Source: an uncultured Gammaproteobacteria bacterium (GTDB lineage: Bacteria > Pseudomonadota > Gammaproteobacteria > JAADHQ01). Taken from it: DNA of 64,000 nucleotides. The position numbers were made by a program, and so were the translations under genes. Where the stretch lies: assembly GCA_947258655.1 (NCBI GenBank), contig CAMYJD010000002.1:1-64000 (forward strand), in the 5' to 3' direction. The notes beneath the pieces are model-generated. The model was not told the origin of the DNA. It worked only from the letters and a program-made list of their open reading frames with translations, and ran no database searches. Numbering within the stretch: position 1 is the first letter of the stretch; each line of letters opens with the position of its first letter. This document shows positions 22,593 to 56,761 of this stretch, piece by piece.

Positions 22593-22879
22593 AACATTCC
22601 AGCATGCTGATAAAGCAGACATGCCGTAATTGCCGGCTAAGATTGAATACGACGGTTCGGCCATCCTTCAATTGCTTATTTTGCATGACTTCATGTTTTT
22701 TCTGGCTAGCAAATGAGCAGAGTTACTGTTCATTCTTGCTTTATAGAATAAAAATAAGCAATAAAAACATCAAGATAGAGAAAATCTCAAACTATCCCTT
22801 TTATTTTTGTGAACCAGCTCTCAGTTGTTATTAAATAGATGATGTTAAATACAAATTAACACATGTTGTTTATGTACTG
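22593..22879 (+). other. Intergenic stretch upstream of the riboswitch
   Basis: About 290 AT-rich bases after the FtsH gene. No gene seen. It must contain the promoter for the riboswitch transcript. Confidence 0.4.
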
Positions 22880-22965
22880 TAAAGGGCAAATCTGCTGAAA
22901 GTCAGAGACGCAAAGCCACCGGGTTACGGGTAATTATTATCTATGCCAGCGGGGTTACCAGGATT
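22880..22965 (+). promoter_or_regulatory. Class I cyclic di-GMP riboswitch (GEMM)
   Basis: Conserved GEMM-I pieces occur in the right order: AAAGGGCAAA, a GAAA tetraloop flanked by CTG and CAG, GACGCAAAGCCACCGGG, a variable stem and GCCAGCGGGGTTACCA. These correspond to the family's GGGCAAACC, ACGCAAAGCC and GCGGGGTTACC cores. The motif sits about 60 bases before the start of the exported repeat protein. A short stem (TTCTGT and ACAGAA at about 22978-22994) between aptamer and gene could be part of the switch. Whether c-di-GMP turns the gene on or off cannot be read from the sequence. Confidence 0.9.
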
Positions 22966-23024
22966 ATCGATACCAATTCTGTTCCTTTACAGAACTTCGT
23001 TCAATTTCATGACTGGAGATCTGT

Positions 23025-25091
23025 ATGAATAAAACATTATTAACCTGCTGTTGTATCCTGACAGCATTTTCCATGCAAACACTTGCGGGGCCAAAGGCCA
23101 AGCCTGCAAAGCTGGCAACGGTTGTAGCCAAGCCGGCATTTAAACCGGAGCAGACATTTATTCGCCTCAGTACGAGTAATCTGACCCAGGATCTTGATAC
23201 ACCTTATATCATTCATTACTCATCGAACGCTGCTGCATATAAGCACTCAGGGCTAAGTTGGAGTATTGACGGAAAGGAAATAGTGGCAACATCAATTGCT
23301 GACAGGAAAAATACAGTCAGTATTACGCCGGAAACAGCCGGTAATCATGAGATCTGTATTCAGGGTGAACTAGGCAAGAGTGACAAAACGCATATCGATT
23401 GCCTTATGGTCACTGTCAATGAGCCGCCGACCACGAACCGTCAGCCGGTTGTTGAAAATGACAGTATCCGTGTCTATCAGGATATCGCCTATGCGAGTTC
23501 TGTTGTTGCATCCGATCCGGATGGCGACCCCTTGGTCTATTCAGTGGACAATCAGCCTGCATTGGGCGCAGTCGTCATGGATTCGGGGACAGGTAACTAT
23601 ACCTATACGCCCAAACCTGGTATATCTGGAGTGGACTCCTTCAGTTTTATTGTGTCGGATGGCATCAGCACTGCTGTTGAGCGTACTGTTTCCGTAACCA
23701 TCGTCAGTACGCAAACCGCTTGTGATGGTATGGGTCCTTATCCGGACAGTGACAAGGATGGATTCCTGGATATTGCCGAGGTTGCCTACGGTACCAATCC
23801 ATTGAATTATGATTCGCGCATACTCGCTTATAATGCCGATGTGCCATTCAACCTGGATGCCGATAATGACGGTTACCTGGGTTATATCGAGACATGGTTG
23901 GGTGCAGATCCGAACGATAGCGCTTCAAAACCAACCGATTCGGATATAGATGGGATACCCAATTGTTTCGAGCCTGTCTCGGATGGTACCAAGGCCATAT
24001 TACCGGCCTTCAATATTCCGGAAGCCGTTATCGATGCGAGTACAGGGACTGCACGTTTTAAATTTGATATGACCGTGCTTGATAATGCCGCAGGTATCAA
24101 TAACATTATTGTAATGATGCGCAGTCCGCTGGGAACGTATCATTATTCCTATCGCTATATCAAAACCCTGGACCGTGCACGTGTAGCACCCGTCCATATC
24201 GAATCAGTGCCGTTGAATCAATACCTGGAATCAGGCGACTGGATGGTCGTGAAGGTACTGATATACGATGAAGCAAAAAACATCTCATCGATCTCGACCG
24301 CCGCGCTGGAGGCTGCAGGATTTCCAACGACCATCAAGGTTGTTAATCCGCAGGCTGATATCAGTGCCCCTGAAGTTACCCGGCTGGGTTTCAGTGAGCA
24401 GGCGCTGGACGTAAGCTCGGACATCGCCCGTATACCTGTTGAGATATCCTCAACCGATAATGTCTCGGGTATCAAATCAATTGTCTCCTACTTGATCAGT
24501 CCTTCCGGTGTGCATCGCGCATATGCCTATGGCTACCATGCAGACCAGCCCCTGAGTGCCGAACAAGTTTATTACAGTACTACGCTGGATAAATACAGTG
24601 AGGCCGGTGAATGGTCTGTCTACCGGGTGTATCTGGAAGACTGGGCAGGTAATCGTCGTTACTATAGCGGTGATATGCTTGCCGAGATGGGATTTGATAA
24701 TACCATTACGATTGTCAATCCCCTCAGTGACATTGTCGCTCCTGAACTGGAACAATTCGATATACTGACGCCAGTCGTTGATCCAAGCGGTGGGCAGCAA
24801 ACGTTTCGTATCAAGGTCAATGCGACGGATGCCGTGTCCGGTACGAGCAGGATCTACACTGTATTCCGCGGTCCTTCAGGGCAATTTCTGTACGCATATA
24901 CCTATAACACGGCTGATTCGCTGAATTACGACGGTGAGATCGTAACTCCAGCTGTCAGCGAGTTCCTCGAGAATGGGGTATGGTCCGTTTACTATATCCT
25001 ACTGTACGATAATGCGGGAAATACGCGTTATTATCGCAATGATGGATTAAAGTCGATGGGATGGGAGACAGATATTCTTATCCAACGCTGA
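23025..25091 (+). CDS. Exported multidomain Ig-like/TSP3-repeat protein under c-di-GMP riboswitch
   Basis: 688 residues with a signal peptide (LLTCCCILTAFSMQTLAG). Parts in order: a PKD/Ig-like region (about 45-135); a cadherin-like module typical of bacterial adhesins (ENDSIRVYQDIAYA to VSVTIV, about 140-230); two calcium-binding type-3 Asp loops (DSDKDGFLDIAEVAYGTNP and DADNDGYLGYIETWLGADP, then DSDIDGIPNC); and three tandem repeats of about 120 residues, each with D-x-VSGI/T-S-I, a GPSG or SPLG turn and a W-VY-I-LYDNAGN motif. No transmembrane anchor, LPxTG or PEP-CTERM was found at the C-terminus. It is probably a secreted or surface matrix protein tied to biofilm signalling. Unknown family. 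Confidence 0.8.
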   Translation: MNKTLLTCCCILTAFSMQTLAGPKAKPAKLATVVAKPAFKPEQTFIRLSTSNLTQDLDTPYIIHYSSNAAAYKHSGLSWSIDGKEIVATSIADRKNTVSITPETAGNHEICIQGELGKSDKTHIDCLMVTVNEPPTTNRQPVVENDSIRVYQDIAYASSVVASDPDGDPLVYSVDNQPALGAVVMDSGTGNYTYTPKPGISGVDSFSFIVSDGISTAVERTVSVTIVSTQTACDGMGPYPDSDKDGFLDIAEVAYGTNPLNYDSRILAYNADVPFNLDADNDGYLGYIETWLGADPNDSASKPTDSDIDGIPNCFEPVSDGTKAILPAFNIPEAVIDASTGTARFKFDMTVLDNAAGINNIIVMMRSPLGTYHYSYRYIKTLDRARVAPVHIESVPLNQYLESGDWMVVKVLIYDEAKNISSISTAALEAAGFPTTIKVVNPQADISAPEVTRLGFSEQALDVSSDIARIPVEISSTDNVSGIKSIVSYLISPSGVHRAYAYGYHADQPLSAEQVYYSTTLDKYSEAGEWSVYRVYLEDWAGNRRYYSGDMLAEMGFDNTITIVNPLSDIVAPELEQFDILTPVVDPSGGQQTFRIKVNATDAVSGTSRIYTVFRGPSGQFLYAYTYNTADSLNYDGEIVTPAVSEFLENGVWSVYYILLYDNAGNTRYYRNDGLKSMGWETDILIQR

Positions 25092-25108
25092 TGAGTTCCA
25101 TGCACCTG

Positions 25109-25132
25109 GCCACCCCGAAAGGGGTGGCTTTC
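25109..25132 (+). terminator. Terminator after the riboswitch-controlled gene
   Basis: An eight-base stem GCCACCCC / GGGGTGGC with a GAAA tetraloop, followed by TTTCG. It lies 17 bases after the stop codon. The U tract is short, so termination may be partial. Confidence 0.75.
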
Positions 25133-33591: not shown

Positions 33592-34866
33592 ATGAGTTCA
33601 TCGCTTCGCATCATAGTGACCGGATTAATAGGACAGCACCCCTGGCTGGGCGGGGTTGCATGGGATTATGTTCAGTACCTTGTCGGGCTGGCCCAGCTTG
33701 GTCACGATGTATATTACCTCGAGGACACCGGTGAGTGGCCCTACAATCTGGATGGCAGTGCTTCGGGTGACAATTGGGTGGCTGAAGATTGTTCCCATAA
33801 TGTTCGTCATATCCATGAAGTGCTGTCACGTTTCGGCCTTGGTGAGCGCTGGGCCTATCGAAATGCTGTCGATTCACAATGGTACGGCATGAATGACAGC
33901 AAACGTGAACAGATCATACGTAGTGCAGATCTGTTGATAAATGTTTCCGGAACCCTCGAAAGACCAGAATTGTATCGTAATGTAAAACGTTTGCTGTATA
34001 TAGACTCGGATCCTGTCTTCACTCAGATTAAGCTCGCCAGTAATCAGACTGATTTTTGTCAGCGTGTTGAAACACACGATGTGCATTTCAGTTTTGGCGA
34101 GTCCTTGTCAGGGGCGGTTCCAGAGACCGCATATAAATGGAAGCCCACGCGCCAGCCGATACTACTCTCGCAATGGCGGCCATCTGCTCCGAGAGGAGAA
34201 AAATATACCACAGTAATGAGCTGGACCAGTTATCCCCCCTTGTTATTCAATGGCAGAACATATGGGCAGAAGGATCTGGAGTTTTTGCATATTCTTGATT
34301 TGCCCAGGCATTTTATGAATGGCAAGCTAGAGGTTGCCCTGAGCCGGACCCAGCATACGAGTTGGCGCTCGGAAGGCTCATCCTTGTCTGCGGATGTCGA
34401 GCAATGGATCAGGGAGCACCCGGAATATTCACCTGTTGAGTTACTGCAATATACCGGCTGGCATGTGACCGATCCCTATCAGCATTGCGCCGATCTTGAT
34501 TCCTATCGGCAATACATAGAATCGTCCAGGGCTGAATTGAGTGTAGCCAAACACGGCTATGTCGTCGGGCAGGCCGGCTGGTTCAGCTGTCGGTCGGCTT
34601 GTTACCTGGCAGCCGGCCGTCCGGTTATTGTACAAGATACTGGGTTCTCGCAAGTATTACCGGTTGGTTCCGGGCTGTTGACTTACAGAAACAGGAATGA
34701 AGCAGTGGAGGCGTTGAACGAAGTCGAGGATAATTATACAAAACACGCCGAGGCTGCACGTGCCCTGGCCGAAGACTATTTCGATTCCGATCGTGTTCTG
34801 ACACGATTGCTCGAAGATGCAATGGCAGAAAACAATTCGCTAAGGTCTCAGGGTGTCGGTGTATGA
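33592..34866 (+). CDS. Glycosyltransferase-like protein, tandem family copy 1
   Basis: 424 residues. The N-terminus LRIIVTGLIGQHPWLGGVAW and YVQYLVGLAQLGHDVYYLED resemble a GT-B fold N-domain. The C-domain has AELSVAKHGYVVGQAGWFSC and GRPVIVQDTGFSQVLP, a donor-binding-like segment. Three further genes (35760, 36892, 38335) share the same landmarks. This copy has an insertion before the C-domain (about 245-285). The closest general description is the CgeB/family-1-like group; the exact CAZy family is not known to me. Its stop overlaps the next gene by ATGA. Confidence 0.7.
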   Translation: MSSSLRIIVTGLIGQHPWLGGVAWDYVQYLVGLAQLGHDVYYLEDTGEWPYNLDGSASGDNWVAEDCSHNVRHIHEVLSRFGLGERWAYRNAVDSQWYGMNDSKREQIIRSADLLINVSGTLERPELYRNVKRLLYIDSDPVFTQIKLASNQTDFCQRVETHDVHFSFGESLSGAVPETAYKWKPTRQPILLSQWRPSAPRGEKYTTVMSWTSYPPLLFNGRTYGQKDLEFLHILDLPRHFMNGKLEVALSRTQHTSWRSEGSSLSADVEQWIREHPEYSPVELLQYTGWHVTDPYQHCADLDSYRQYIESSRAELSVAKHGYVVGQAGWFSCRSACYLAAGRPVIVQDTGFSQVLPVGSGLLTYRNRNEAVEALNEVEDNYTKHAEAARALAEDYFDSDRVLTRLLEDAMAENNSLRSQGVGV

Positions 34867-35756
34867 AAATTCTGGTGGCTGGCTGGTTCAGTTTTGAACA
34901 AATGGGTGCGAGTGCAGGGGATCTGCTTGCCCGTGACCTGGTCTGTCAGTGGCTGAAGGATGCAGGGCACAGTTATGACATTGCAGTGATGGCGCCATTT
35001 ACAGACGGTATCACCTGGAGCGATACCAGTCCGGATGAATATGCTGCATTGATATTCGTTTGCGGTCCTTTCGGGAACGGGCCGCCATTGACAGAATTTT
35101 TTAAACATTTTGAAAGGGTTCCGCTGATCGGCGTCAATCTGACCATGTTGCAGGATCTATCTGAATGGAATCCTTTCGAAATGTTATTTGAGAGGGACAG
35201 TAGTGTAACAGCAAGACCGGACCTGGTATTTTTGACCGAGCAGAAGCGGGTTCCAGTGGCCGGATTGATCCTTGTTCATGCACAAAAGGAGTATGGTGAC
35301 AGGGCCATGCATCAAATTGCTGGCGAAGCGCTACAGAGACTTATCGATGTGCATGAATTGGCAGTTGTTCCTATCGATACCCGCCTGGATCAAAATGAGA
35401 CAGGCTTACGTACTCCGGCAGAGGTTGAATCATTGATCGCGCGTATGGATGTCGTCATAACCACCCGCCTGCATGGCATGGTCATGGCACTCAAGAACGG
35501 CGTGCCTGCGCTGGTCGTGGATCCGATTGCCGGGGGCGCAAAGATAATGCGTCAGGCCAGGGCCATCGATTGGCCGATGGCCTTTAGCGCCGATACGCTC
35601 AGTGAAGAAGGGCTCAGGGAAGCACTGGGATTCTGCTTGTCATCTGCAGGAAAAACACGTGCATTACAAACGCGTGAAATGGCGCGGGAAAAACTTCGTG
35701 GTGTCCGCGACCAGTTCCTTACTGGACTGCGTGAACTGATTCGACTGGAGGCATAA
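34863..35756 (+). CDS. Polysaccharide pyruvyl transferase-like protein
   Basis: 297 residues, coupled to copy 1 by ATGA. The N-terminus is MKILVAGWFSFEQMGASAGD, and the late segment MDVVITTRLHGMVMALKNGVPALVVD is the signature of the polysaccharide pyruvyl transferase family, including the RLHG motif. These enzymes transfer a pyruvate ketal from PEP to a sugar. It lies inside the array of glycosyltransferase copies, so its acceptor is probably the growing glycan. Confidence 0.8.
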   Translation: MKILVAGWFSFEQMGASAGDLLARDLVCQWLKDAGHSYDIAVMAPFTDGITWSDTSPDEYAALIFVCGPFGNGPPLTEFFKHFERVPLIGVNLTMLQDLSEWNPFEMLFERDSSVTARPDLVFLTEQKRVPVAGLILVHAQKEYGDRAMHQIAGEALQRLIDVHELAVVPIDTRLDQNETGLRTPAEVESLIARMDVVITTRLHGMVMALKNGVPALVVDPIAGGAKIMRQARAIDWPMAFSADTLSEEGLREALGFCLSSAGKTRALQTREMAREKLRGVRDQFLTGLRELIRLEA

Positions 35757-35759
35757 ACC

Positions 35760-36905
35760 TTGGCTCGTATCCTTGTCTCAACCTACATGGTTCGCTATCC
35801 ACTTGGCGGAATGTTGTCGTGGGCATTGCAATATGCGCTGGGTTTTCACCGCCTGGGCCACGAGGTCTTTTTGCTTGAACGAGCGAGTTATACCGATGCC
35901 TGCTTTGATCCGCAACGACAGCAGATGACCGATGACTGCCGTACAGGCTATGCGATTGTGCATGATCTGCTCGAGCGTTTTGGGCTGGAGCAGAGGCTTG
36001 TATTCGAAGACATCAATGGTGATGTGTTTGGTATGAACAAGACCGAACTGTCTGAACTGTTTCGCAGTGCTGATCTATTGGTCGATACGGGTAATCACGG
36101 TGCCTGGCTGGAACAGGCCAAAGAGGCAGGAATACCCAGTGTTCTTATCGAGGGAGAGCCTGGATTTACACAGATAAGAATGGAGCAAGAGGCAGAGAAC
36201 GGACAGGTGTCTAATGAATTCGATTACTATTACTCGAATGGAGCAAATATCGGCACGCAAAATACCACTGCACCCAATGCCGGGCGTGATTGGCATCATG
36301 TCTTCAATCCTGTAGATACTGAATTATTTCAGATGAGTGTTCCACCAGCAGACGCCCATTTCACCACGGTCATGAACTGGCAATCGCATAAACCGATTTG
36401 CTATAAGGGTCAATGTTATGGGCAGAAGGATGTGGAGTTTGCACATTTTATGGATCTACCAAAACATGTCACGGTATCACTGGAAGTAGCCGCAGCCGGC
36501 AAGGTCCCGAAGCAGGAGCTGCAAAGTAGTGGCTGGCGCCTGCGTCAGGCCCATCAGGTTACCCACTCCTTTGATGAATATCGTCGTTATATCAATGCAT
36601 CCATGGGGGAATTCAGCGTATCCAAGAATGTCTTCGTCGCTACCCGTAATGGCTGGTTCTCCGATCGCAGTGCCGCTTATCTTGCTAGTGGTCGCCCAGT
36701 TGTACTTCAAGATACCGGTTTTAGCGATCACTTGCCTTGTGGTGAAGGCCTTTTTGCGGTAGCTAATGTCGATGAAGCGGCTCAGGCGCTGGAGGAAATT
36801 GTCGGCGACTACTCGCGCCACGCACGTCGTGCGCGCGAAATTGCGGAGTCCTATCTTGATGCACGCATGCTTATGCAAGGGGTTGCGAATCATGTCGGGC
36901 TTTGA
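35760..36905 (+). CDS. Glycosyltransferase-like protein, tandem family copy 2 (TTG start)
   Basis: 381 residues. TTG 35760 is chosen because GGAGG lies 8 bases before it at 35747-35751; the only ATG nearby would lose the start of the conserved domain. It has ILVSTYMVRYPLGGMLSW, ALQYALGFHRLGHEVFLLER, GEFSVSKNVFVATRNGWFSD and SGRPVVLQDTGFSDHLP. It is the most divergent of the four copies in the N-domain. It overlaps copy 3 by 14 bases. Confidence 0.7.
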   Translation: MARILVSTYMVRYPLGGMLSWALQYALGFHRLGHEVFLLERASYTDACFDPQRQQMTDDCRTGYAIVHDLLERFGLEQRLVFEDINGDVFGMNKTELSELFRSADLLVDTGNHGAWLEQAKEAGIPSVLIEGEPGFTQIRMEQEAENGQVSNEFDYYYSNGANIGTQNTTAPNAGRDWHHVFNPVDTELFQMSVPPADAHFTTVMNWQSHKPICYKGQCYGQKDVEFAHFMDLPKHVTVSLEVAAAGKVPKQELQSSGWRLRQAHQVTHSFDEYRRYINASMGEFSVSKNVFVATRNGWFSDRSAAYLASGRPVVLQDTGFSDHLPCGEGLFAVANVDEAAQALEEIVGDYSRHARRAREIAESYLDARMLMQGVANHVGL

Positions 36906-38115
36906 CAGGGCATGCTCGGATAATAGCAGCGCCCTGCGCATCCTGGTGCTGGGATATATCGTGCGATGTCCTATTGGCGGGATGGCGTGGCACCACTTGC
37001 AGTATGTTACCGGCCTGGCACGCCTGGGTCATGAGGTTCTGTTCGTCGAAGACAGCGGTGACGAGCCATGGGCCTGTTATGACCCGGGCAGCGGGGAGTG
37101 CGGAACAGATCCGGCCTATGGTCTGGAATTTACCCGGAGAGTATTTGAACGGGTCGGTCTTGACAGGCACTGGGCCTACCATGATGCATTTACTGACAGT
37201 TGGCACGGCCCGGGTGCGCAACTGGTGACGGAATTCTGTAACAATGCCGATATGTTACTGAACCTGTCCGGTGCCAATCCAATACGGGAGCAAATGCTTG
37301 GAGTTCCGATTAGGGTCTATCTGGATACGGATCCGCTCTTTACCCAGGTGCGGATTCTACAGGATCCTGAGCGACAACGTCTTGCCGCTGCTCATAATAT
37401 GTTCTTTTCCTTTGGCGAGAAGTTCGGAGATGAAGATTGCGGTATCCCTGACGACGGATTTCCATGGCAACCGACGCGCCAACCCATCGATCTGTATGCC
37501 TGGCAATTTTCATCTGCACCTGCACACGCAGCCTTCACTACGGTCATGCAATGGGATAGCTACAGTAAGCAGAGTCATGAAGGACGGGAATATGGTATGA
37601 AAGCAGAGTCATTCGGTCCCTATATGGATCTCCCGCAACATACCGACGTTGAACTCGAGATAGCGATGGGCAGTGTCGAAGCGCCACGTCAGCAACTTAA
37701 GGAGCTGGGCTGGCATTTGCGTAATCCGCTCGAAGTGACGCGTGATCCGTGGAGCTATCAGGATTACATTTACAGTTCAGGTGGTGAGTTCAGTGTTGCA
37801 AAGCATGGATACGTAGCGTCTCATAGTGGTTGGTTTAGTGAACGCAGCGCCTGTTATTTGGCTAGCGGCCGGCCTGTTATTACCCAGGAAACAGGTTTTT
37901 CATCAATCATATCAGCAGATGCAGGCCTAATCCCGTTTACTTCCCTACAGAATGCTCAGACAGGGTTGGAAGCAGTTAAAACTTATTATAATCGTCACTG
38001 TGAGGCTGCCCGCGATATTGCTATGACGTATTTTGACTCAAACAAGGTTCTCAATTCCTTGTTGGAGAGGGCATTTAGTAAAAATGCTAAATTCCTGGCA
38101 GGTACTACGTTATGA
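36892..38115 (+). CDS. Glycosyltransferase-like protein, tandem family copy 3
   Basis: 407 residues from ATG 36892 (AAGGGG at a fitting distance); longer in-frame starts at 36766 and after lie inside copy 2 and were rejected. Landmarks: RILVLGYIVRCPIGGMAWHH, LQYVTGLARLGHEVLFVEDS, RVYLDTDPLFTQV, a GREYGMKAESFGPYMDLPQH segment, GEFSVAKHGYVASHSGWFSE and SGRPVITQETGFS. Closest to copy 4. Same direction and almost no spacing, so co-transcribed. Confidence 0.72.
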   Translation: MSGFDRACSDNSSALRILVLGYIVRCPIGGMAWHHLQYVTGLARLGHEVLFVEDSGDEPWACYDPGSGECGTDPAYGLEFTRRVFERVGLDRHWAYHDAFTDSWHGPGAQLVTEFCNNADMLLNLSGANPIREQMLGVPIRVYLDTDPLFTQVRILQDPERQRLAAAHNMFFSFGEKFGDEDCGIPDDGFPWQPTRQPIDLYAWQFSSAPAHAAFTTVMQWDSYSKQSHEGREYGMKAESFGPYMDLPQHTDVELEIAMGSVEAPRQQLKELGWHLRNPLEVTRDPWSYQDYIYSSGGEFSVAKHGYVASHSGWFSERSACYLASGRPVITQETGFSSIISADAGLIPFTSLQNAQTGLEAVKTYYNRHCEAARDIAMTYFDSNKVLNSLLERAFSKNAKFLAGTTL

Positions 38116-38334
38116 TCAGGTTGATCGACCGTAATCATTGTGTATATGCTATTTATGATATTATTGGATTATTAAGACTTTATGCAGTACTAACCGGTCT
38201 GCGTAAAGCAGTTCTAATGCGTGTATTTTATTGTAAATATACTCGCGTACTTATAGATATTTACATCAATTCTTCCTGTCTCATGCCTGGTAAGTGCATA
38301 AATACATGCTACTGTAGTGACTGGATTAAAATTA

Positions 38335-39498
38335 ATGGATAATCAGCTACGCATTATAGTAAGTGGCTATTTGATGCGATTCCCTCTCGGGGGTAATGCC
38401 TGGGTATATCTTCAATATGTGCTGGGTCTGTCCCAGCTCGGGCATGACGTATACTATGTAGAGGATAGCGGTGAATCGCTGTATGGGTGTTACAATCCTG
38501 TTACAAATAATAGTGATGCTGATCCAGGCTATGGTCTCAACTTTGCGCAACAATGCTTCGCTCACTTCGGGCTGCAAGATAGATATGCCTATTTTGATGC
38601 GCACAATTCGAATTGGTTTGGTCCGTGTGCTGATAGGATAGAAGAAATCTGCAACAATGCGGATATGTATATAAATGTGTCTGGCGTAGACTTGATGCGC
38701 CCATGGTTCGAGAGTATACCTGTACGAGTTCTTATCGATACAGATCCGGTTTTTACCCCGATAATTCATTTGACCAATAACGAAAGAAGAACCAATAGCT
38801 TGCGATATAATAACTTTTATTCTTTCGGGGAAAATATCAGTCGTGGATCGTCTAGTGTTCCAGATGATGGTCTGCCATGGCTTGCTACCCGACCGCCGAT
38901 TGTACTTGATGCATGGCCGTTTTTACCTGGTAAGGTTACTAACAAGTTTACAACGATTATGAAATGGGAAAGTTATCCTGCCGGAGAATATGAAGGAGTT
39001 CAATACGGGATGAAGGCAGAGTCATTTGCACCCTACATGGATCTGCACGGGAGAGTATAGGCAGGGCTAGAGCTGACAGCGAGTGGCGGTAATATGCCGG
39101 CCAATGAGCTTAAACAAGCCGGTTGGACGATTAGCAACCCTCTCAAGATAACCAAGGATTTATGGACTTATCAGCGTTATCTGCAGGATTCCAAGGCAGA
39201 ATTCAGTATAGCAAAGCATGGTTATGTGGTGAGCCAGAGTGGCTGGCTTAGCGACCGCAGTGGTGCCTATCTTGCCAGTGGGAGGCCAGTGTTGGTTCAA
39301 GATACGGGATTTACAGACTGGCTTGAAGCAGATGCAGGGTTGATCGTATTTAGCACGCCAGATGAGGCTGTTGCCGGGATAGAAGAGATAAATAGTCGAT
39401 ATGAGTTTCATTGCGAAGCAGCCAGAGAGATTGCAAAAGAATATTTCGACGCAAGCAAAATACTTGCTGATTTACTGGAACGCTCGAGGTCGTCATAG
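38335..39498 (+). pseudogene. Glycosyltransferase-like protein, tandem family copy 4, with in-frame TAG
   Basis: One reading frame throughout from ATG 38335. TAG at 39058-39060 separates an N-part (RIIVSGYLMRFPLGGNAW to YMDLHGRV) from a C-part (AGLELTASGG to LLERSRSS). Against copy 3 the alignment is continuous without gaps across the stop, with the stop at a position that is Asp in copy 3 (PQHTDVELE). So it is a simple nonsense change or a base-call error, not a frameshift. The C-part lacks its own start. If real, this copy is inactive. Confidence 0.75.
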
Positions 39499-48501: not shown

Positions 48502-49122
48502 TTATTTGCTCCGCTGCTGACGTAATACGCGGATTTGAAACTGGGTATTACGATCTTCCTCGGACAGGGTTGATTCAATATATTCAATCGTCGTACGATA
48601 ACGTGGGATTACATTGTATTTCAGTGCGTTGACGCGTTTCTGGGTCTTGCGCTGCTCGGACAGAAAACGGCGCAATGCGGTTTCTGATTCCCCGAGTTGT
48701 GCAAGTAGCTTTGACAGGCGAACCAGGCGTATACGTGCTTCATCGAAACTGGCATCGGTCCACATAAGGCCTACAGGCTGCAGCTGTAATTGTTCAACTG
48801 TGACTGATGGATATTCCACTCCGATACTGCTGCGAGGAAGGATATTAACTTCAAGCGCAGGCTGTAATCCAAGGGCGGCCTGGCCGAGCATGTAGTTACC
48901 CATACGCATATTGCTGATACCAAGCCAATGATACGCATCTTGCAGTGCCTTGCGTGTTTCACTACGTAATTGCCGATACTGTTTCAATCGTTGATAGACC
49001 AAGCGTGTTATCAGTTCGCGTTTTCGCTCCAGCATTCCATGACCCTGCTCAAGAAATATTACCTGTCTCTTGAGCGATAATAACGCACTTTTTGTGGGTG
49101 GGACCTTGAGACGTTCTGTCAC
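48502..49122 (-). CDS. ntpD: V/A-type ATPase subunit D
   Basis: 206 residues, the last gene of the ATPase operon. A long coiled-coil protein: LKVPPTKSALLSLKRQVIFL at the start, a central domain, and an RRVNALKYNVIPRY-like motif (QKRVNALKYNVIPRYRTTIE) near the end that is diagnostic of the family. It forms the central rotor stalk with subunit F. It overlaps subunit B by 4 bases. Confidence 0.92.
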   Translation of the reverse strand: MTERLKVPPTKSALLSLKRQVIFLEQGHGMLERKRELITRLVYQRLKQYRQLRSETRKALQDAYHWLGISNMRMGNYMLGQAALGLQPALEVNILPRSSIGVEYPSVTVEQLQLQPVGLMWTDASFDEARIRLVRLSKLLAQLGESETALRRFLSEQRKTQKRVNALKYNVIPRYRTTIEYIESTLSEEDRNTQFQIRVLRQQRSK

Positions 49123-50516
49123 GATGCCTCCACATGTGGGAATTCGTGATGATGGTAACGGGCAAGGTCTTCTTCACTTACACGACTGAGTTCATGCGCC
49201 GGCAATAATGACAGGATATCCCAGGCGATGTTGAGTGTATCTTCAATTGTTCGCTCATCGTCTTCACCCTGACTGACAAAATTATGTTCGAAGGCTTCAG
49301 CAAAGGCGAGATATTGCCGATCATTTTCAGCAAGTTCTTCGGCGCCGATAATAGAGGCCAGATTACGTATTTCGAGGGCTCTCGCGTACGAGGCATAGAT
49401 CTGGCTTGCTACCCGTGCATGGTCTTCACGGGTATAACCCTTGCCAATTCCGTCTTTCATCAAGCGTGATAATGATGGCGGTATAAATATGGGCGGATAC
49501 AGGCCGAGGTTATGTAGTTCACGTCCCAGCACTATTTGCCCTTCGGTTATATAGCCGGTCAGATCTGGAATCGGATGGGTAATATCATCGCTGGGCATAC
49601 TGACCACGGGAACCAGTGTAATAGATCCATGGCGGGCCTTGATACGGCCTGCGCGCTCATAGATTTCAGCCAGATCAGAATACAGATAGCCGGGATATCC
49701 CTTGCGTGACGGGACGTCACCCTTTGCTGTAGCGACTTCACGTAGCGCCCCTGCATATTGGGTCATGTCGGTCATGACAACCAGTACATGCATATCAAGG
49801 TCATAGGCGAGATATTCAGCCGTGGTCAAGGCTGTACGAGGCAGGATCAGGCGTTCAATAGCGGGATCATCGGCCAGATTGATATACATTGTAACATTGG
49901 ATAACACTCCGGAAGATTCCAGGCTTTCCTGAAAGAAGCGTGCATCGCTGTAGGAAACGCCCATGGCTGCAAACACGATGGCAAACTGAGACTCCTCACC
50001 GGGTAATTTGGCCTGACGAACAATTTGTGCCGCGAGACGGTTATGGGGCAGGCCGGGACCGCTGAAAATGGGTAACTTCTGTCCACGCACTAGGGAATTG
50101 AGTCCATCGATTGCCGAAATCCCGGTCTGGATGAATTCACGCGGGTACGCACGTGCAGCCGGATTTACGCTTGATCCGTTCACATTGCGCATAATACGCG
50201 ATACGAGCGGTGGACGATCATCGCGTGGTTCACCGATACCGTTGAATACTCGGCCAAGTATGGCAGGGCTTAAGGTAATCTCAAATGGCTCGCCGAGAAA
50301 GCGTACCCATGTTCGTTCAAGGTCTAGGCCATCCGTACCTTCAAATACTTGCACCAACACCGTATCTTTGGCTGTACGAATGACCTGGCCGTTGCGCTGA
50401 CGACCTTGGTGGTCACGTACTTGCACACGTTCTCCCAGGGCAATATCTGGCGCGGAGCGCATAAACAGCAATCCGCCGCGTGCACTTGTGTTTTGTCGGT
50501 ATTCCTTGTCACTCAT
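49119..50516 (-). CDS. ntpB: V/A-type ATPase subunit B
   Basis: 465 residues. It has the regulatory non-catalytic subunit's degenerate nucleotide loop (FSGPGLPHNRLAAQIVRQA), the preceding TGISAIDGLNSLVRGQKLPI, and the VVMTDMTQYAGALREVA and GYPGYLYSDLAEIYERAGR motifs. It alternates with A in the catalytic head. Overlaps both neighbours by 4 bases, so translation is coupled. Confidence 0.95.
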   Translation of the reverse strand: MSDKEYRQNTSARGGLLFMRSAPDIALGERVQVRDHQGRQRNGQVIRTAKDTVLVQVFEGTDGLDLERTWVRFLGEPFEITLSPAILGRVFNGIGEPRDDRPPLVSRIMRNVNGSSVNPAARAYPREFIQTGISAIDGLNSLVRGQKLPIFSGPGLPHNRLAAQIVRQAKLPGEESQFAIVFAAMGVSYSDARFFQESLESSGVLSNVTMYINLADDPAIERLILPRTALTTAEYLAYDLDMHVLVVMTDMTQYAGALREVATAKGDVPSRKGYPGYLYSDLAEIYERAGRIKARHGSITLVPVVSMPSDDITHPIPDLTGYITEGQIVLGRELHNLGLYPPIFIPPSLSRLMKDGIGKGYTREDHARVASQIYASYARALEIRNLASIIGAEELAENDRQYLAFAEAFEHNFVSQGEDDERTIEDTLNIAWDILSLLPAHELSRVSEEDLARYHHHEFPHVEAS

Positions 50517-52300
50517 TCGCTAATTTCCTGATTAATGGCATACTCGGATTTCATGCTGAGTTTCAGGGCCTGTAATTCATCAGAGAATATTGCATAAGCC
50601 TCTGGTTCCTTTTCCAGATCGATACCTTTTAGTCGTCGGGCACGTGCGAGTATCGGTTGTCTCAACAACTCCTGTACCGGTACACCAATATCCAGTAACT
50701 CAATACCAGATGTATATAGGTCTATCATCAATTTGAGCAATGCGAATTGTTTATCAGGCGAACAATAGCTGTCTACAGGATCCAGCGCACTTTGTTGTAG
50801 CACGCCTTCCTTGAGGAAATTGGCAGCTTCCAGAGCCCAGCGCTGATTCTGTGATAAAGCCTCGGGGCCTACCAGATTGACAATTCGTGAAAGTTCGTCT
50901 GCCTGTGCCAGCAAGGCCAGAGCTTTACGCCGGTAATCTTCCCATAGCGGGTCAACATGTTCTGCCCACCATTGTTGTGCGATGCCGGCATAACCGGAAA
51001 AACTGTCCGTCCAGTCCACGGCGGGATAGTGTCGAGCATCGGCCAGGGGTTTGGACAGGGCCCAGAATGTTTCTACGATATTTTTTGTATGACTGGTTAC
51101 CGGTTCGGAGAAATCCCCACCTGGCGGAGATACTGCCCCGATCAGGGTCACAGAGCCGGATATTCCTGCATTCGTTTTCACACGCCCGGCACGCTCGTAA
51201 TACGATGCAAGACGTGAAGCCAGGTAGGCAGGGTAACCTTCCTCGACCGGCATTTCGTTCAGGCGACCGGAAACTTCGCGCAGGGCTTCTGCCCAACGGC
51301 TGGTGGAATCAGCAACGACGACCACATCATAGCCCTGGTCACGATAATATTCAGCCATCGTGATACCCACATATATTGACGCTTCGCGTGCTACTACAGG
51401 CATGTTAGAGGTGTTGGCAACCAGCAGCGTGCGTTCCATCAGTGAGCGTCCGCTACGAGGATCGGATAGTTCTGGAAAGCTCTCCAGAATGTCGACCAGT
51501 TCGTTACCGCGTTCACCGCAACCGATATAAATGACAATGTCGGCGTCTGCCCATCTCGCGATTTGCTGTTGCACAACTGTCTTTCCAGCTCCAAACGGGC
51601 CCGGTACGGCACCTTTGCCACCCTTGAGTAACGGAAAAAACGTATCAAGAATACGCTGTCCGGTCAGCAGGGGTATTACGGCATGATCGCGATACTGATA
51701 TGGACGTGCAGTTCGGACCGGCCAGCGGTGATAGAGTTTTAATTTATGGATTTTTCCACTGGTATCGCGAACCCGTGCAATCACATCTTCAACAACATAG
51801 TCACCAGCCGGCGCAAGTTCGAGTAATTCACCGCTGGTATCCGCTGGTACCAGTATACGATGTTCGATACTGTCGGTTTCCATTACCAATCCCAGTATTT
51901 CACCACCCTCCAAGCGCTGGCCTATTTTTATTGTAGTGGCGGGAGTAAATGCCCATTTTCGTTCACGATCGAGTGATGGCAGGTATAGTCCACGCGGTAT
52001 ATAGTCACCACTTTGTTGTTGAATGGAATGTAATGGGCGCTGTATACCATCGAATATCTGGCCCAACAGGCCAGGGCCTAACTCGACTGATAACGGGTGT
52101 CCAAGAGCAGCGGCTGCTTCACCTGGCCTCAAACCTTCGGTCGACTCGTAAGCCTGGACGATAGCATTGTCATGTTCACGTGCGATAACCTCTCCGATCA
52201 GACCAAGCTCGCCCAGCTTGACTTCCTCACCATTTACCACTCCCGGCAGCAAAACAGTGACAATGGGTCCATTGACTTCCAGTACTTCACCCACGGCCAA
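50513..52300 (-). CDS. ntpA: V/A-type ATPase catalytic subunit A
   Basis: 595 residues. Walker A GPFGAGKTVVQQQ is at about residue 235, with GCGERGNELVDIL after it and VVADSTSRWAEALREVSGRL as the Walker B region. The inserted bulge domain that distinguishes A-type from F-type beta subunits is present (about 110-190). It hydrolyses or makes ATP. It overlaps subunit E by 14 bases and B by 4. Confidence 0.96.
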   Translation of the reverse strand: MAVGEVLEVNGPIVTVLLPGVVNGEEVKLGELGLIGEVIAREHDNAIVQAYESTEGLRPGEAAAALGHPLSVELGPGLLGQIFDGIQRPLHSIQQQSGDYIPRGLYLPSLDRERKWAFTPATTIKIGQRLEGGEILGLVMETDSIEHRILVPADTSGELLELAPAGDYVVEDVIARVRDTSGKIHKLKLYHRWPVRTARPYQYRDHAVIPLLTGQRILDTFFPLLKGGKGAVPGPFGAGKTVVQQQIARWADADIVIYIGCGERGNELVDILESFPELSDPRSGRSLMERTLLVANTSNMPVVAREASIYVGITMAEYYRDQGYDVVVVADSTSRWAEALREVSGRLNEMPVEEGYPAYLASRLASYYERAGRVKTNAGISGSVTLIGAVSPPGGDFSEPVTSHTKNIVETFWALSKPLADARHYPAVDWTDSFSGYAGIAQQWWAEHVDPLWEDYRRKALALLAQADELSRIVNLVGPEALSQNQRWALEAANFLKEGVLQQSALDPVDSYCSPDKQFALLKLMIDLYTSGIELLDIGVPVQELLRQPILARARRLKGIDLEKEPEAYAIFSDELQALKLSMKSEYAINQEISE

Positions 52301-52943
52301 TGATCCCCGGATCTGTTACGCCAGTGAATAATTTTTCCATTACCGTTTTTTCCAGAGCAGGGCGTAAACGCTGCAGGCGTTGTTCAAATGTGTTGTCCAA
52401 ACGGATACGGTTGTCATGTGTCGATAATAATATACCTCCACTGCATTCAATCGGGTCATCCGATAAGGTAATGGTCTTGTCAATTCCACAGTCCTGTACG
52501 AACGCTTGCCAACGCTCATCAAACATGATCAGATCACGGGCATTCAGATATGCTGTCAGTGTGTCACTCTCGATAACTGCAGCGCCGGCACAAATTGACT
52601 GTTTCAAAATTGCTTTGTATTCATTTTCATTTTTCGTCAGTTCCTGCAGACGGTTTTCCAGTTCACTCATCACTGTCTGGATAAGTGCCCATCGGGTTTG
52701 ATCCAGTTTTGTCCGCAGTTGGATCTCGGCGGCCTGTATACGGCGTCGGTAGTGGCGCTCTGCCAGGGCACTGGCGATTTGCTCTTCGCGTTCCTGGTGT
52801 AGTTTAGTATGTTCCCTGGCCTCATGAATGATGCGCTCGCGTTCACCTTCGGCAAGGGCGATGTGTTCTTTGGCCAGTTGCTCGGCGCGTGCCAGCAGGG
52901 CGCTTTCGAGTTTTGATTCCTGGGTCTGTTCACTCAAGATCAT
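52287..52943 (-). CDS. ntpE: V/A-type ATPase subunit E
   Basis: 218 residues. The first half is a long charged helix (LLARAEQLAKEHIALAEGER, HEAREHTKLHQEREEQ) and the second half is the globular domain with TLSDDPIECSGGILLSTHDN, a family feature. It forms the outer stalk with the G/H-type subunit. Overlaps F by 4 bases and A by 14. Confidence 0.88.
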   Translation of the reverse strand: MILSEQTQESKLESALLARAEQLAKEHIALAEGERERIIHEAREHTKLHQEREEQIASALAERHYRRRIQAAEIQLRTKLDQTRWALIQTVMSELENRLQELTKNENEYKAILKQSICAGAAVIESDTLTAYLNARDLIMFDERWQAFVQDCGIDKTITLSDDPIECSGGILLSTHDNRIRLDNTFEQRLQRLRPALEKTVMEKLFTGVTDPGIIGRG

Positions 52944-53323
52944 TGCTCCAAAGCACGTGGTCCCAGTATCGCTTCAACCTGTGCTTCAACGGCCGGCTTG
53001 TAACCTTCAGGGCTGTGTAATTGGGGTATTTCAGTCACCACGATCCTACCACCTTCGGATAACACCCGATTTAACCATGGTCCACCACTTGCTGCCAGTT
53101 GGTGTTCCAGAATGACGAATGCTTTTATACGCTGCCGCACCAGGTCAGCCAGTATGGTTTCCATTTGTTCTGGGGTAGGATCGGGATACGCCTCAAATCC
53201 AATCAATGCAAAACCCTGAACAAGGGCGGCACTACCCATCGCAATCAGGCGTGATGGACTCGTGCCTGATTGCAGTGAATCTTGTTGTGGCACATGATCA
53301 GAGTGTGGATTCGCCGGTTCCAT
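52940..53323 (-). CDS. ntpF: V/A-type ATPase subunit F
   Basis: 127 residues. An N-terminal extension of about 25 residues precedes the CheY-like fold (LIAMGSAALVQGFALIGFEA, AFVILEHQLAAS, VVTEIPQLHSPEGY). It sits on the rotor with D. Gene order here is K-F-E-A-B-D; in several other bacterial operons F follows C or E. Start ATG 53323 abuts the K stop directly. Confidence 0.82.
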   Translation of the reverse strand: MEPANPHSDHVPQQDSLQSGTSPSRLIAMGSAALVQGFALIGFEAYPDPTPEQMETILADLVRQRIKAFVILEHQLAASGGPWLNRVLSEGGRIVVTEIPQLHSPEGYKPAVEAQVEAILGPRALEQ

Positions 53324-53770
53324 TTATATTTTACCTAAAAGCAATATCGTAACAACCAGGCCATATATGGCAATACCCTCGGCCAGGCCCAGATAGATCA
53401 GGGTGCGGCCAAACATTTCAGGTTTTTCAGAAATTAATGCCAATGACGCAGCGCCAACAGAACTGACCGCAATACCACTGCCGATAGCGGCAAGAGCGGT
53501 AGGAAGGCCTATGCCGATGAGTGTAAGTCCCAGTCCAACTGAAACATCGAGTCCACCGCTTGCAGTTTCGGTAGCGGCCATCACATTTTGTATGCCGAAT
53601 ATCAAGACACCGAGAGTGGCAGTAATATATACTGCCAGATTACTGGTGATAATACTTTTTAACCGGATTTTGGCCCTGGTGCCTCCTCTGACAGGGTGAA
53701 TTTCATAATAAACGCCTAAACAGATGATACCTATAACACCCAGACTTACCAATGCGACCAACCAGTACAT
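53324..53770 (-). CDS. ntpK: V/A-type ATPase membrane ring subunit K (c)
   Basis: 148 residues from ATG 53770 (AGGGGA ribosome site 8 bases upstream); an upstream start at 53809 would add non-membrane residues. Four membrane helices: MYWLVALVSLGVIGIICLGV, LAVYITATLGVLIFGIQNVM, then a c-type hairpin LTLIGIGLPTALAAIGSGIA and LIYLGLAEGIAIYGLVVTIL. The ion-binding carboxylate is the Glu in LAEGIAIYG. The first pair does not look like a c hairpin. The Gln/Thr sodium ligands of the E. hirae ring are not evident, which favours proton coupling (inference). Confidence 0.85.
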   Translation of the reverse strand: MYWLVALVSLGVIGIICLGVYYEIHPVRGGTRAKIRLKSIITSNLAVYITATLGVLIFGIQNVMAATETASGGLDVSVGLGLTLIGIGLPTALAAIGSGIAVSSVGAASLALISEKPEMFGRTLIYLGLAEGIAIYGLVVTILLLGKI

Positions 53771-53783
53771 AATCACTATCCCC

Positions 53784-55694
53784 TTAGCTATTGATGAGTT
53801 GTATACCATTTGAGGGTAATACTAACGGACGGAACTCACGTCCATTACCACTAAAGAAGCGCGAGAAACCTTCATAATATTCCAGGCGCAAGATCTGAAT
53901 CATTACGATTGCACCTTCAAGCACGATAATGAATACATTACCCAGCACCACGGTCACCCAGTATCCGAATTGATCGAGCATACCAGCCAATGTGAACACC
54001 GCAATAGCCAGGGCAACATGATTCAGGCTGAAAGCCGCAACGCGCAAAAAAGAAAGTGTGTTCGAGACATAGCTCATAACGGCTTCAAATCCCTCGATAA
54101 TGACGACCAGTACACGTTCGCCAGTTGAAGCCTGGCGATATTTTCGCCAATTGACTATTGAAATCAATGTCATAGGCAGAAGTACAAATAACAGTTCAAG
54201 CGTACCCAATTGACCATTAATTATCCATTGATATGCGGCGAACATCAATCCCAGGTACAGCGCCAGACCGGCCATACCATCGCTATTGAATAATGCTAAA
54301 TGAAATCGGCGCTGACGAAAACGGTTCGAGATTGTCAATATGGTGGCAACCAGAATAAATCCAATCCCCCAGTAGACAGCCAGGCTTAGCATACGGACGG
54401 GGTCAGATAACGGCGATATCCATAGTGGCGCGATGACATGTTCATTTCCGAATATACTCCCGTATATAAATCCGAAAACAACAGACATTAGGCCGGCGAT
54501 TATCATGAGTATGGTAAACTGGCCAAGTACACGCCGCATAAGCAGAGCACCGGTGGCAATGACAGCGCCATGACCGACATCCCCGAACATCATCCCGAAC
54601 ATCAAAACAAAAGTCAGGGTGAATAACAAGGTCGGATCAAATTCGTCGTAACTCGGTATACCATATCCCTTAACAAGGGTTGTAAACGGTTTCAGCCAGT
54701 GCCGATGATGCAGTGCAGTAGGGACCAGGGTAAGCTCCTCTGGGAGTGGGTCTCGTGATGTCAGTACGACGCAGTCTGAAAAATGAGATGTCAGAAGATT
54801 ACGTAAATCAGCGACTGATCGCTTCGGTACCCAGCCGCTGATCAAGGCAAGTTCTCCTCGTACCCGCAAGGACTGCGCCAATTCAGCATAGGGAGATGCC
54901 AGTGTCAGTACCTGTGCAATGTCAAGCAATCTTGCTTCATGAACCTGTCGAACATATGAAATCTGTTCTGTCACATCTTGTAAGCGGGTGTCAATTTCGT
55001 TGGAACGTGATTCCAGGAGTGATCTGACCTGATCAGGATGACCATGAAATTCCGGGGGCACTGCCATAGCATGCCAGCCAGCTACTTCCAGGGTCTTGTC
55101 TATATCGGCCCGGTTGACTACAGGACCGGCCAGTAATACATGTGCCGTGCCATCTATGCTGAAGAAATGTGTCGCCGTGTAGTCAGCAATACCGACCGCT
55201 TCTTTAATGCGATCGAGCTCGGTTTCAGGCAGTGTGCCAACGCGCAGGTCCAGAAACTGATGCTGACTGTGTAGCAAATCCAGGTCGATGTCGAGGTTGG
55301 AAAATTCATCCAGGGTTGTACGTAATTGCTGCAGTCTCTTCCGCTGTTCGCTATTGCGTCTGATACTCTCGTCATGTTGTGAGCATTCATGCCACAAATG
55401 GCCCAGCCATTGGTCGATTCCCACTAATTCCGGAAGAGTGATTGGTGAGCTATCGACAGCGCTAGTTTCTGTAATGTTGATATCCAGATGCTTGAGGATC
55501 TTTTGTAACTGCGCCAGGCTGCTTTGTAAGTGCTCGCGATAGAGCGTTGCCGGTGATTCCGGTAGTTGTTCACTATATTCGTCAGAGATCTCCGGTTGAA
55601 AAACACCAAGTTGAGCCAGCACCAGGGCTGCATCGGGTACATCTTCAGCCATCATTTGTATGTATACCTTTTGCATGCTTAAAGGTAAAAACAC
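53784..55694 (-). CDS. ntpI: V/A-type ATPase subunit I (a)
   Basis: 636 residues from GTG 55694, with GAGGG about 7 bases upstream; the stop of subunit C and this GTG overlap by one base (TAGTG). ATG 55676 is the alternative. The first ~320 residues are a cytoplasmic coiled-coil and alpha/beta arm (with EQISYVRQ, LALISGWVPKRSVADL). The second half has seven or eight helices, including LFTLTFVLMFGMMFGDVGHG and the conserved Arg-bearing NTLSFLRVAAFSLNHVALA. It provides the ion half-channels facing the K ring. Confidence 0.92.
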   Translation of the reverse strand: MFLPLSMQKVYIQMMAEDVPDAALVLAQLGVFQPEISDEYSEQLPESPATLYREHLQSSLAQLQKILKHLDINITETSAVDSSPITLPELVGIDQWLGHLWHECSQHDESIRRNSEQRKRLQQLRTTLDEFSNLDIDLDLLHSQHQFLDLRVGTLPETELDRIKEAVGIADYTATHFFSIDGTAHVLLAGPVVNRADIDKTLEVAGWHAMAVPPEFHGHPDQVRSLLESRSNEIDTRLQDVTEQISYVRQVHEARLLDIAQVLTLASPYAELAQSLRVRGELALISGWVPKRSVADLRNLLTSHFSDCVVLTSRDPLPEELTLVPTALHHRHWLKPFTTLVKGYGIPSYDEFDPTLLFTLTFVLMFGMMFGDVGHGAVIATGALLMRRVLGQFTILMIIAGLMSVVFGFIYGSIFGNEHVIAPLWISPLSDPVRMLSLAVYWGIGFILVATILTISNRFRQRRFHLALFNSDGMAGLALYLGLMFAAYQWIINGQLGTLELLFVLLPMTLISIVNWRKYRQASTGERVLVVIIEGFEAVMSYVSNTLSFLRVAAFSLNHVALAIAVFTLAGMLDQFGYWVTVVLGNVFIIVLEGAIVMIQILRLEYYEGFSRFFSGNGREFRPLVLPSNGIQLINS

Positions 55695-56761
55695 TATTGT
55701 ACCCTCTGTTGTGTTTTTACCTCTGGGCAGAGCAGGTCTGTACTAATCAATCCAGTTGCGATACGAATCAGTTCAGGATCCAGCTGTAGTCGCTTACCAC
55801 GGATTACAGCGCGTAAACGGCGTAAATCCCGTTCGCGTAATATCAGGTATGCAAGTGCGCTGATCGGATTGAAAAGGCTGTAGTTCAGGATTTTTTGGGC
55901 AGTTACCCATGTATGGTGTTCAAGCCTGCGAATAACCTCAGAGGTGCAACGCGCTCCACCCAGTACACTGGACAAGCCCTCAGGCAAATGTTCAATGACA
56001 TCGGTAAGGCTTTCACGCTGACAAAGCGACAATAATTTCTGGCTGCTGAGATGCAGACCATGTGGAATCAACAGATAATATGTCTGTGCCGGAGGCAAAT
56101 TATACGCAAATCGGTATCGTAATAGCCAGACCAGGTTCACACGATCAATGATTGAACCGCCCAATTGCCGCTGCGGAAGTTCAGAAGTATGGGGCGCAGC
56201 CAATGTACGACGGGCAAGGCCGGTAAAGTAATGGCGGTCAATGGTTGCATCAAGATCAAACAGATCCTGTCCCTGTTCGAAGACTCGGCGCGCATCCCTG
56301 GCTATGGCTGTAAAAGGTGTTGTTTCAAGGATCCGCAACAGCTCGGCAGTATTATCAGATTGTAGTAAACGTTCTACTGGTAATGTGGTCAATGATCCCA
56401 TATTGACGAGATGAGTACGAATCGTGCTGTTCGACTGGCGATTCATTTTTCCACGTAAAATAGCTTTGAGATTGCTGATTTCAAAGCGCTCTGCCCAGTA
56501 TAATAATAAATCGCGATCACTGTTTGTGAGTGGTCGTAATAGTATGATCAGTTCATCGAGCAATAATGTTATCAATATCTGATCCAGATCATCATTTCTA
56601 CCCATTTCATCAGCCGAGTAAGAAGTGTCAGGAGAAATCCTTGCCAATAGCTCTGTCAATGAAACACGTTTCTCAATCAAACTCTCAATATCAGTATCAC
56701 TGAGAAGGCGTTCAGCCAGTATTGATACACGTGTATATAGATAGGGATGATTGGCCAACAT
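55694..56761 (-). CDS. ntpC: V/A-type ATPase subunit C (AC39/d family)
   Basis: 355 residues, mostly helical. It has the segment YWAERFEISNLKAILRGKMN typical of the AC39 family and two further similar helical blocks (REDLRRLRAVIRGKRLQL-type repeat at the end, RERDLRRLRAVIRGKRLQLD). It links the rotor stalk to the membrane ring. It begins 7 bases after the first gene of the operon. Confidence 0.85.
   Translation of the reverse strand: MLANHPYLYTRVSILAERLLSDTDIESLIEKRVSLTELLARISPDTSYSADEMGRNDDLDQILITLLLDELIILLRPLTNSDRDLLLYWAERFEISNLKAILRGKMNRQSNSTIRTHLVNMGSLTTLPVERLLQSDNTAELLRILETTPFTAIARDARRVFEQGQDLFDLDATIDRHYFTGLARRTLAAPHTSELPQRQLGGSIIDRVNLVWLLRYRFAYNLPPAQTYYLLIPHGLHLSSQKLLSLCQRESLTDVIEHLPEGLSSVLGGARCTSEVIRRLEHHTWVTAQKILNYSLFNPISALAYLILRERDLRRLRAVIRGKRLQLDPELIRIATGLISTDLLCPEVKTQQRVQ

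Follow-up and report, generated by a model that had tools for sequence, protein, structure and literature searches.

Two riboswitches of the c-di-GMP-I (GEMM-I) class are the closest described precedents for the locus analyzed here. Vc2, located upstream of tfoY in Vibrio cholerae, is a published translational OFF switch (PMC7371385, PMC9262584); a reference given in PMC7371385 (Inuzuka 2018) reports in its title that ligand binding masks the ribosome-binding site. In contrast, Bc2 of Bacillus thuringiensis, which precedes the surface adhesion gene cap (PMC4933901, PMC6366702), is a class I ON switch that promotes transcriptional read-through into this collagen adhesion gene (PMC6366702). The direction of switching therefore cannot be read off the riboswitch class.

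The locus described in this study lies in a 64 kb window (the whole stretch of DNA that was analyzed) from an uncultured gammaproteobacterium. It shares with Vc2 the aptamer class and a Gram-negative host, and its leader is likewise predicted to mask the ribosome-binding site upon ligand binding. The targets differ (a transcription regulator for Vc2, an exported repeat protein here), and the two expression platforms are likened by their logic, not base by base. Bc2 resembles the window locus in that a c-di-GMP-I aptamer precedes a gene for a (here putative) surface adhesion protein, but it is an ON switch acting on transcription in a Gram-positive host, and the protein is unrelated. On the protein side, RbmA, a scaffold protein of V. 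cholerae biofilms built of tandem FnIII domains, is similar in being exported, in matching the fold of the third repeat of the window protein and in domain length (112-124 aa; PMC5605196), whereas it is described as having two FnIII domains, without cadherin or TSP3 modules, and no sequence similarity to it was detected. Finally, the giant 'tandem-95' proteins also contain Big_9 repeats and carry the same unit of a TSP3 module and three Ig-like repeats, but the window protein is far shorter, has a single cadherin-like repeat and, at 47 bits, stays below the cut-off of 90 set for the NCBIfam tandem-95 model. We consider it moderately probable that the riboswitch controls translation of a secreted Ig-like, calcium-loop surface or matrix protein, most likely as an OFF switch.

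The aptamer and its surroundings

An earlier note on this DNA had placed a GEMM-I riboswitch just 5' of a gene for an exported protein. A covariance-model search bore this out: Rfam model RF01051 was matched over positions 1-87 of 87 (76.7 bits, E 2.7e-13, gathering cut-off 35), the sole Rfam match at the gathering threshold in the window, and the pairing of riboswitch and gene recurs in distant relatives (see below). The start proposed in the note, 22880, falls inside the aptamer, but 5 nt past its true start at 22875. The distance from the aptamer to the start of the ORF (23025) is 62 nt. The aptamer and the features of the gene are as follows:

22875..22962, + strand, c-di-GMP-I (GEMM-I) aptamer (cmscan, 76.7 bits, full length)
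23025..25091, + strand, ORF of the putatively exported Ig/TSP3-repeat protein P0001, 688 aa (84% identical ortholog in G003)
23025..23090, + strand, probable Sec signal peptide, residues 1-22 (read from the sequence)
23436..23699, + strand, Big_9/cadherin-like domain, residues 138-225 (Pfam, above cut-off)
23745..23972, + strand, TSP3-like module, residues 241-316, with three D-x-D-x-D-G...E loops (sequence, family alignment)
23976..25088, + strand, three tandem Ig/FnIII-like repeats at 23976-24347, 24348-24719 and 24720-25088 (DUF7035, alignments, model of repeat 3)
25108..25129, + strand, terminator-like hairpin 3' of the gene

GEMM-I variants that prefer cGAMP carry an A at the position equivalent to G20 of Vc2. 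In the window aptamer the equivalent base (22885, mapped from the printed cmscan alignment) is a G; cGAMP was therefore ruled out as the ligand, and c-di-GMP is expected instead. This position has been termed a selectivity factor (PMC9262584). The presence of 40 GGDEF matches in the source genome makes c-di-GMP plausible as the ligand. Judged by its sequence, the window aptamer is a genuine c-di-GMP-I riboswitch, of an already known class, and is predicted to bind c-di-GMP. The same genome contains a second c-di-GMP-I riboswitch (C8:50107-50194; L003 7108-9204), located 5' of an unrelated 619-aa ORF for which no Pfam match above cut-off was found.

Just 5' of the aptamer, at 22843-22861, lies a perfect inverted repeat, TGTTAA-N7-TTAACA, which is the sole match in the window when up to one mismatch is allowed (chance mean 0.24) and has one mismatch in the G003 ortholog. 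It is possibly an operator or a promoter element. A promoter scan detected none near the leader, with a count not above chance.

Genes read as polysaccharide synthesis functions start at 25716. As they lie beyond the terminator-like hairpin, they probably form a unit of their own. Next to the G003 ortholog, too, are genes interpreted as encoding a glycosyltransferase and a flippase. Elsewhere in the window, two ORFs (38317-39060 and 39094-39498) seem to be fragments of one gene similar to the intact neighbours upstream of it (33592-38115), and this disruption at 38317-39498 appears to be a frameshift or an assembly error. Genes read from their ORFs as a V/A-type ATPase operon, unusual in a gammaproteobacterium, occupy 48502-56761 on the - strand.

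Modules and relatives of the exported protein

The N-terminus of the 688-aa protein, MNKTLLTCCCILTAFSMQTLA, is probably a Sec signal peptide, consistent with the export proposed in the earlier note. The cadherin-like module reported there was recovered as Big_9 at residues 138-225 (54.4 bits, cut-off 23.6); Cadherin_5 and Cadherin_4 likewise exceeded their cut-offs. The Asp loops were borne out by the sequence: three EF-hand-like loops with EF-hand/TSP3 spacing are present at residues 241-252, 278-289 and 305-316, although Pfam TSP3_bac reaches 22.5 bits, below its cut-off of 25 (43.5 bits, above cut-off, in the G243 relative). The module is framed by Cys233 and Cys314, which are invariant across the family alignment, and in the ortholog the third loop has Gly in place of its first Asp. 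The Asp loops may bind calcium.

The three C-terminal repeats of approximately 120 residues are real and mutually homologous (∼30% identical), and they align with seven further repeats of a paralog. The note did not recognize their kind, which is nevertheless not wholly new: the whole protein matches DUF7035 (43.8 bits, cut-off 27; single repeats fall below, 22.6 at best), while the corresponding region of giant relatives matches Big_3_2 (Ig-like) together with DUF7035 or DUF7743 above cut-off. The repeats are Ig/FnIII-like beta-sandwiches within known Ig-like families. A literature search on DUF7035 returned no papers. The structure model of the whole protein was unusable (pLDDT 42.6); repeat 3 was modelled as a beta-sandwich (pLDDT 77.6, pTM 0.71). 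In a fold search with this model the top eight PDB matches were all RbmA, followed by antibody domains; the best match to RbmA had E 3.1e-4 and a moderate TM of ∼0.57, and sequence identities were 12-14%. The repeat sequence profile gave no match to RbmA chains up to E 10, and the likeness is therefore a fold lead, not evidence of family membership. No sequence match of the repeats to any solved structure was found, and the viral fold search gave none at E 0.001.

The profile search with the repeats that the earlier note had advised revealed a family of giant proteins in several gammaproteobacterial families. Among 369 genomes of the class, matches were strong in five and weak in three more. 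In G003, a genome of the same genus (its contig matches MAG ES_Gamma_034), the 84% identical ortholog is preceded by a riboswitch ∼63 nt upstream; no further orthologs were found in the genome_contigs collection, and no relatives on viral contigs. A second riboswitch in G003 (59.5 bits) lies upstream of a 43-codon lipoprotein ORF that overlaps the 5' end of the gene for a 2,614-aa protein, which contains two copies of the TSP3 and triple-Ig unit. In G243, from another family, the riboswitch, a small lipoprotein ORF and a gene for a 2,725-aa giant are consecutive. Three more genomes came from a search of the orders to which G243 and G301 belong: G373, G374 and G387, each with riboswitch, small lipoprotein and giant; in G301 the lipoprotein and the giant are present without a riboswitch match. 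The loci of this type are:

L047, ∼12290-4156, - strand, riboswitch, VIxGxA lipoprotein and giant
L089, 9686-1182, - strand, riboswitch, VIxGxA lipoprotein and giant
L121, L122 and L123, riboswitch, VIxGxA lipoprotein and giant
L090, VIxGxA lipoprotein and giant, without riboswitch

In total, a riboswitch is found upstream of both short forms (2/2) and of five of the six giants (∼2,600-3,000 aa) with a readable 5' region, in several gammaproteobacterial families; these loci are partly dependent, the two short forms being orthologs and G243, G373 and G374 belonging to one genus. The G287 locus, which ends at a contig end, is outside this tally. Given 115 c-di-GMP-I riboswitches among the matches listed over the 369 genomes, chance adjacency is not credible. 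Each of the six giants is preceded by a gene for a product of ∼42-66 residues (by start choice) that has a lipobox-like Cys with Gly or Ser after it and an end of the form VIxGxA. This constancy suggests that the putative lipoprotein is a functional partner of the giant. In our reading, the window protein is the short version of a family of giants whose genes usually stand under c-di-GMP-I control and follow a small lipoprotein gene.

On a wider scale, too, the riboswitch repeatedly accompanies secreted proteins of cadherin-like type: 45 further riboswitch-bearing genomes yielded four more riboswitches just 5' of same-strand Big_9 genes (G014, G064, G096 and G341). At L125 (G096:C60) and L126 (G341:C34), the c-di-GMP-I riboswitch is located 5' of genes for secreted proteases of the subtilisin-like type whose tails are PKD-like and Big_9, the domains being identified from sequence and the Big_9 search.

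From its domains and the one structural lead (RbmA), we infer a matrix or adhesion role of the window protein. Modules of the Ig, cadherin-like and TSP3 kinds serve as generic spacers, and a functional riboswitch might instead serve a protein that is, e.g., envelope-associated, nutrient-binding or enzyme-scaffolding, in a motile low c-di-GMP phase. Such a role would agree with the predicted OFF sign and with the occurrence of the same riboswitch class in front of the proteases of G096 and G341; however, no catalytic domain was found by Pfam in the window protein or the giants, and RbmA tops the fold search. We regard this alternative as rather unlikely.

Leader pairings and the predicted direction of the switch

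Two alternative pairings were identified in the leader:

22877..22885, + strand, antisequestor 5' arm, CUGUAAAGG, within conserved aptamer bases (9-nt complement, folding)
22984..22992, + strand, antisequestor 3' arm, CCUUUACAG (complement and folding)
22988..22999, + strand, 5' arm of the sequestor hairpin of the ribosome-binding site (folding)
23014..23025, + strand, 3' arm of the sequestor hairpin, Shine-Dalgarno GGAG (23015-23018) through the A of the start codon (folding and conservation)

The 9-nt complementarity of the antisequestor arms was reached by 37 of 20,000 dinucleotide shuffles, and the pairing is retained in the ortholog, where the 3' arm reads CCUUUGCAG. The sequestor hairpin has a folding energy of -13.0 kcal/mol, compared to a shuffle mean of -6.4, with 0.8% of shuffles as low. 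The two pairings are mutually exclusive, and an A to G change at 22989 in the ortholog pairs in both structures. Between the window and G003 (n = 2 sequences), ∼40 of the 44 bases of the hairpin region (∼91%) are identical, compared to 43% at fourfold-degenerate sites of the two orthologs; the spacer 3' of the aptamer has visibly diverged. As the antisequestor uses up conserved aptamer bases, it should exclude ligand binding.

At low c-di-GMP, 22877-22885 would pair with 22984-22992 and the ribosome-binding site would stay comparatively accessible. Once c-di-GMP is high, aptamer folding would occupy 22877-22885 and release the downstream segment, which would then pair over the Shine-Dalgarno sequence and the edge of the start codon, blocking translation.

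In constrained ensembles, opening of the Shine-Dalgarno sequence and AUG costs 4.6 (window) and 5.0 kcal/mol (G003) with the antisequestor enforced, compared to 8.8 and 8.9 with the aptamer enforced; the corresponding values for a 15-nt footprint are 4.9/5.1 and 9.7/10.1. This gap of ∼4 kcal/mol in both orthologs varies with transcript length, and some pairing of the site persists in either state. Shuffled leaders served as the control for a comparison of the free with the aptamer-enforced ensemble in six leaders. Aptamer folding significantly hid the site in three giants with unrelated leaders (G243, +3.6; G374, +4.2; G003:C16, +6.8 kcal/mol), an effect equalled by 0 of 120 shuffles each. The effect was +1.5 for the G373 giant (8% of shuffles as large), weak for the window leader in the full equilibrium ensemble (+1.9; 3%) and absent for the G003 short form (-0.4; 45%). 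The leader of G387, compared without shuffles, showed almost no difference (+0.2). Equilibrium folding leaves aside tertiary contacts and kinetics, and the evidence from the short forms hinges on transcript length. Wherever folding gives a signal its sign is OFF, which suggests the predicted direction.

The idea that c-di-GMP switches the protein on is thus not supported, and the leader looks like an OFF switch. A functional ON switch, by which c-di-GMP would raise a matrix or adhesion protein as in the usual sessile programme, has a precedent in Bc2 (PMC6366702), and the domains resemble those of adhesion and matrix proteins. However, the antisequestor should be incompatible with ligand binding, in both orthologs the alternative hairpin covers the ribosome-binding site, none of the six tested leaders had the opposite sign beyond shuffles, and no intrinsic terminator was found between the aptamer and the start codon; we judge this possibility improbable. 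Non-functional copies do occur, making up 5 of 16 c-di-GMP riboswitches in C. difficile 630 (PMC6366702). That the window aptamer is such a relic, without control over the gene, is nevertheless very improbable in view of its score of 76.7 bits, its conserved core bases and the retention of aptamer and hairpin in the ortholog despite the divergence at fourfold sites.

Novelty and biological meaning

No published description of the target family, of the lipoprotein-giant operon or of the predicted OFF sign was found in a literature search that covered few subscription journals, and among the titles listed none of relevance linked cadherin, Ig or thrombospondin terms to GEMM or to c-di-GMP riboswitches. 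Extending the OFF reading to the whole family, we tentatively propose that c-di-GMP, which usually signals matrix production, represses, via recurring riboswitches, a dedicated Ig/TSP3 surface-protein family including the lipoprotein-giant operon, whose products would be surface structures of a low c-di-GMP phase (motile, exploratory or dispersal).

These loci represent a recurring and directly testable c-di-GMP target: large surface proteins that in uncultured Gammaproteobacteria come with riboswitches of their own and with a small, conserved lipoprotein as putative partner. If the OFF direction is true, it would contradict the simple expectation of more adhesive surface protein at high c-di-GMP, and the undescribed giants would gain a physiological context.
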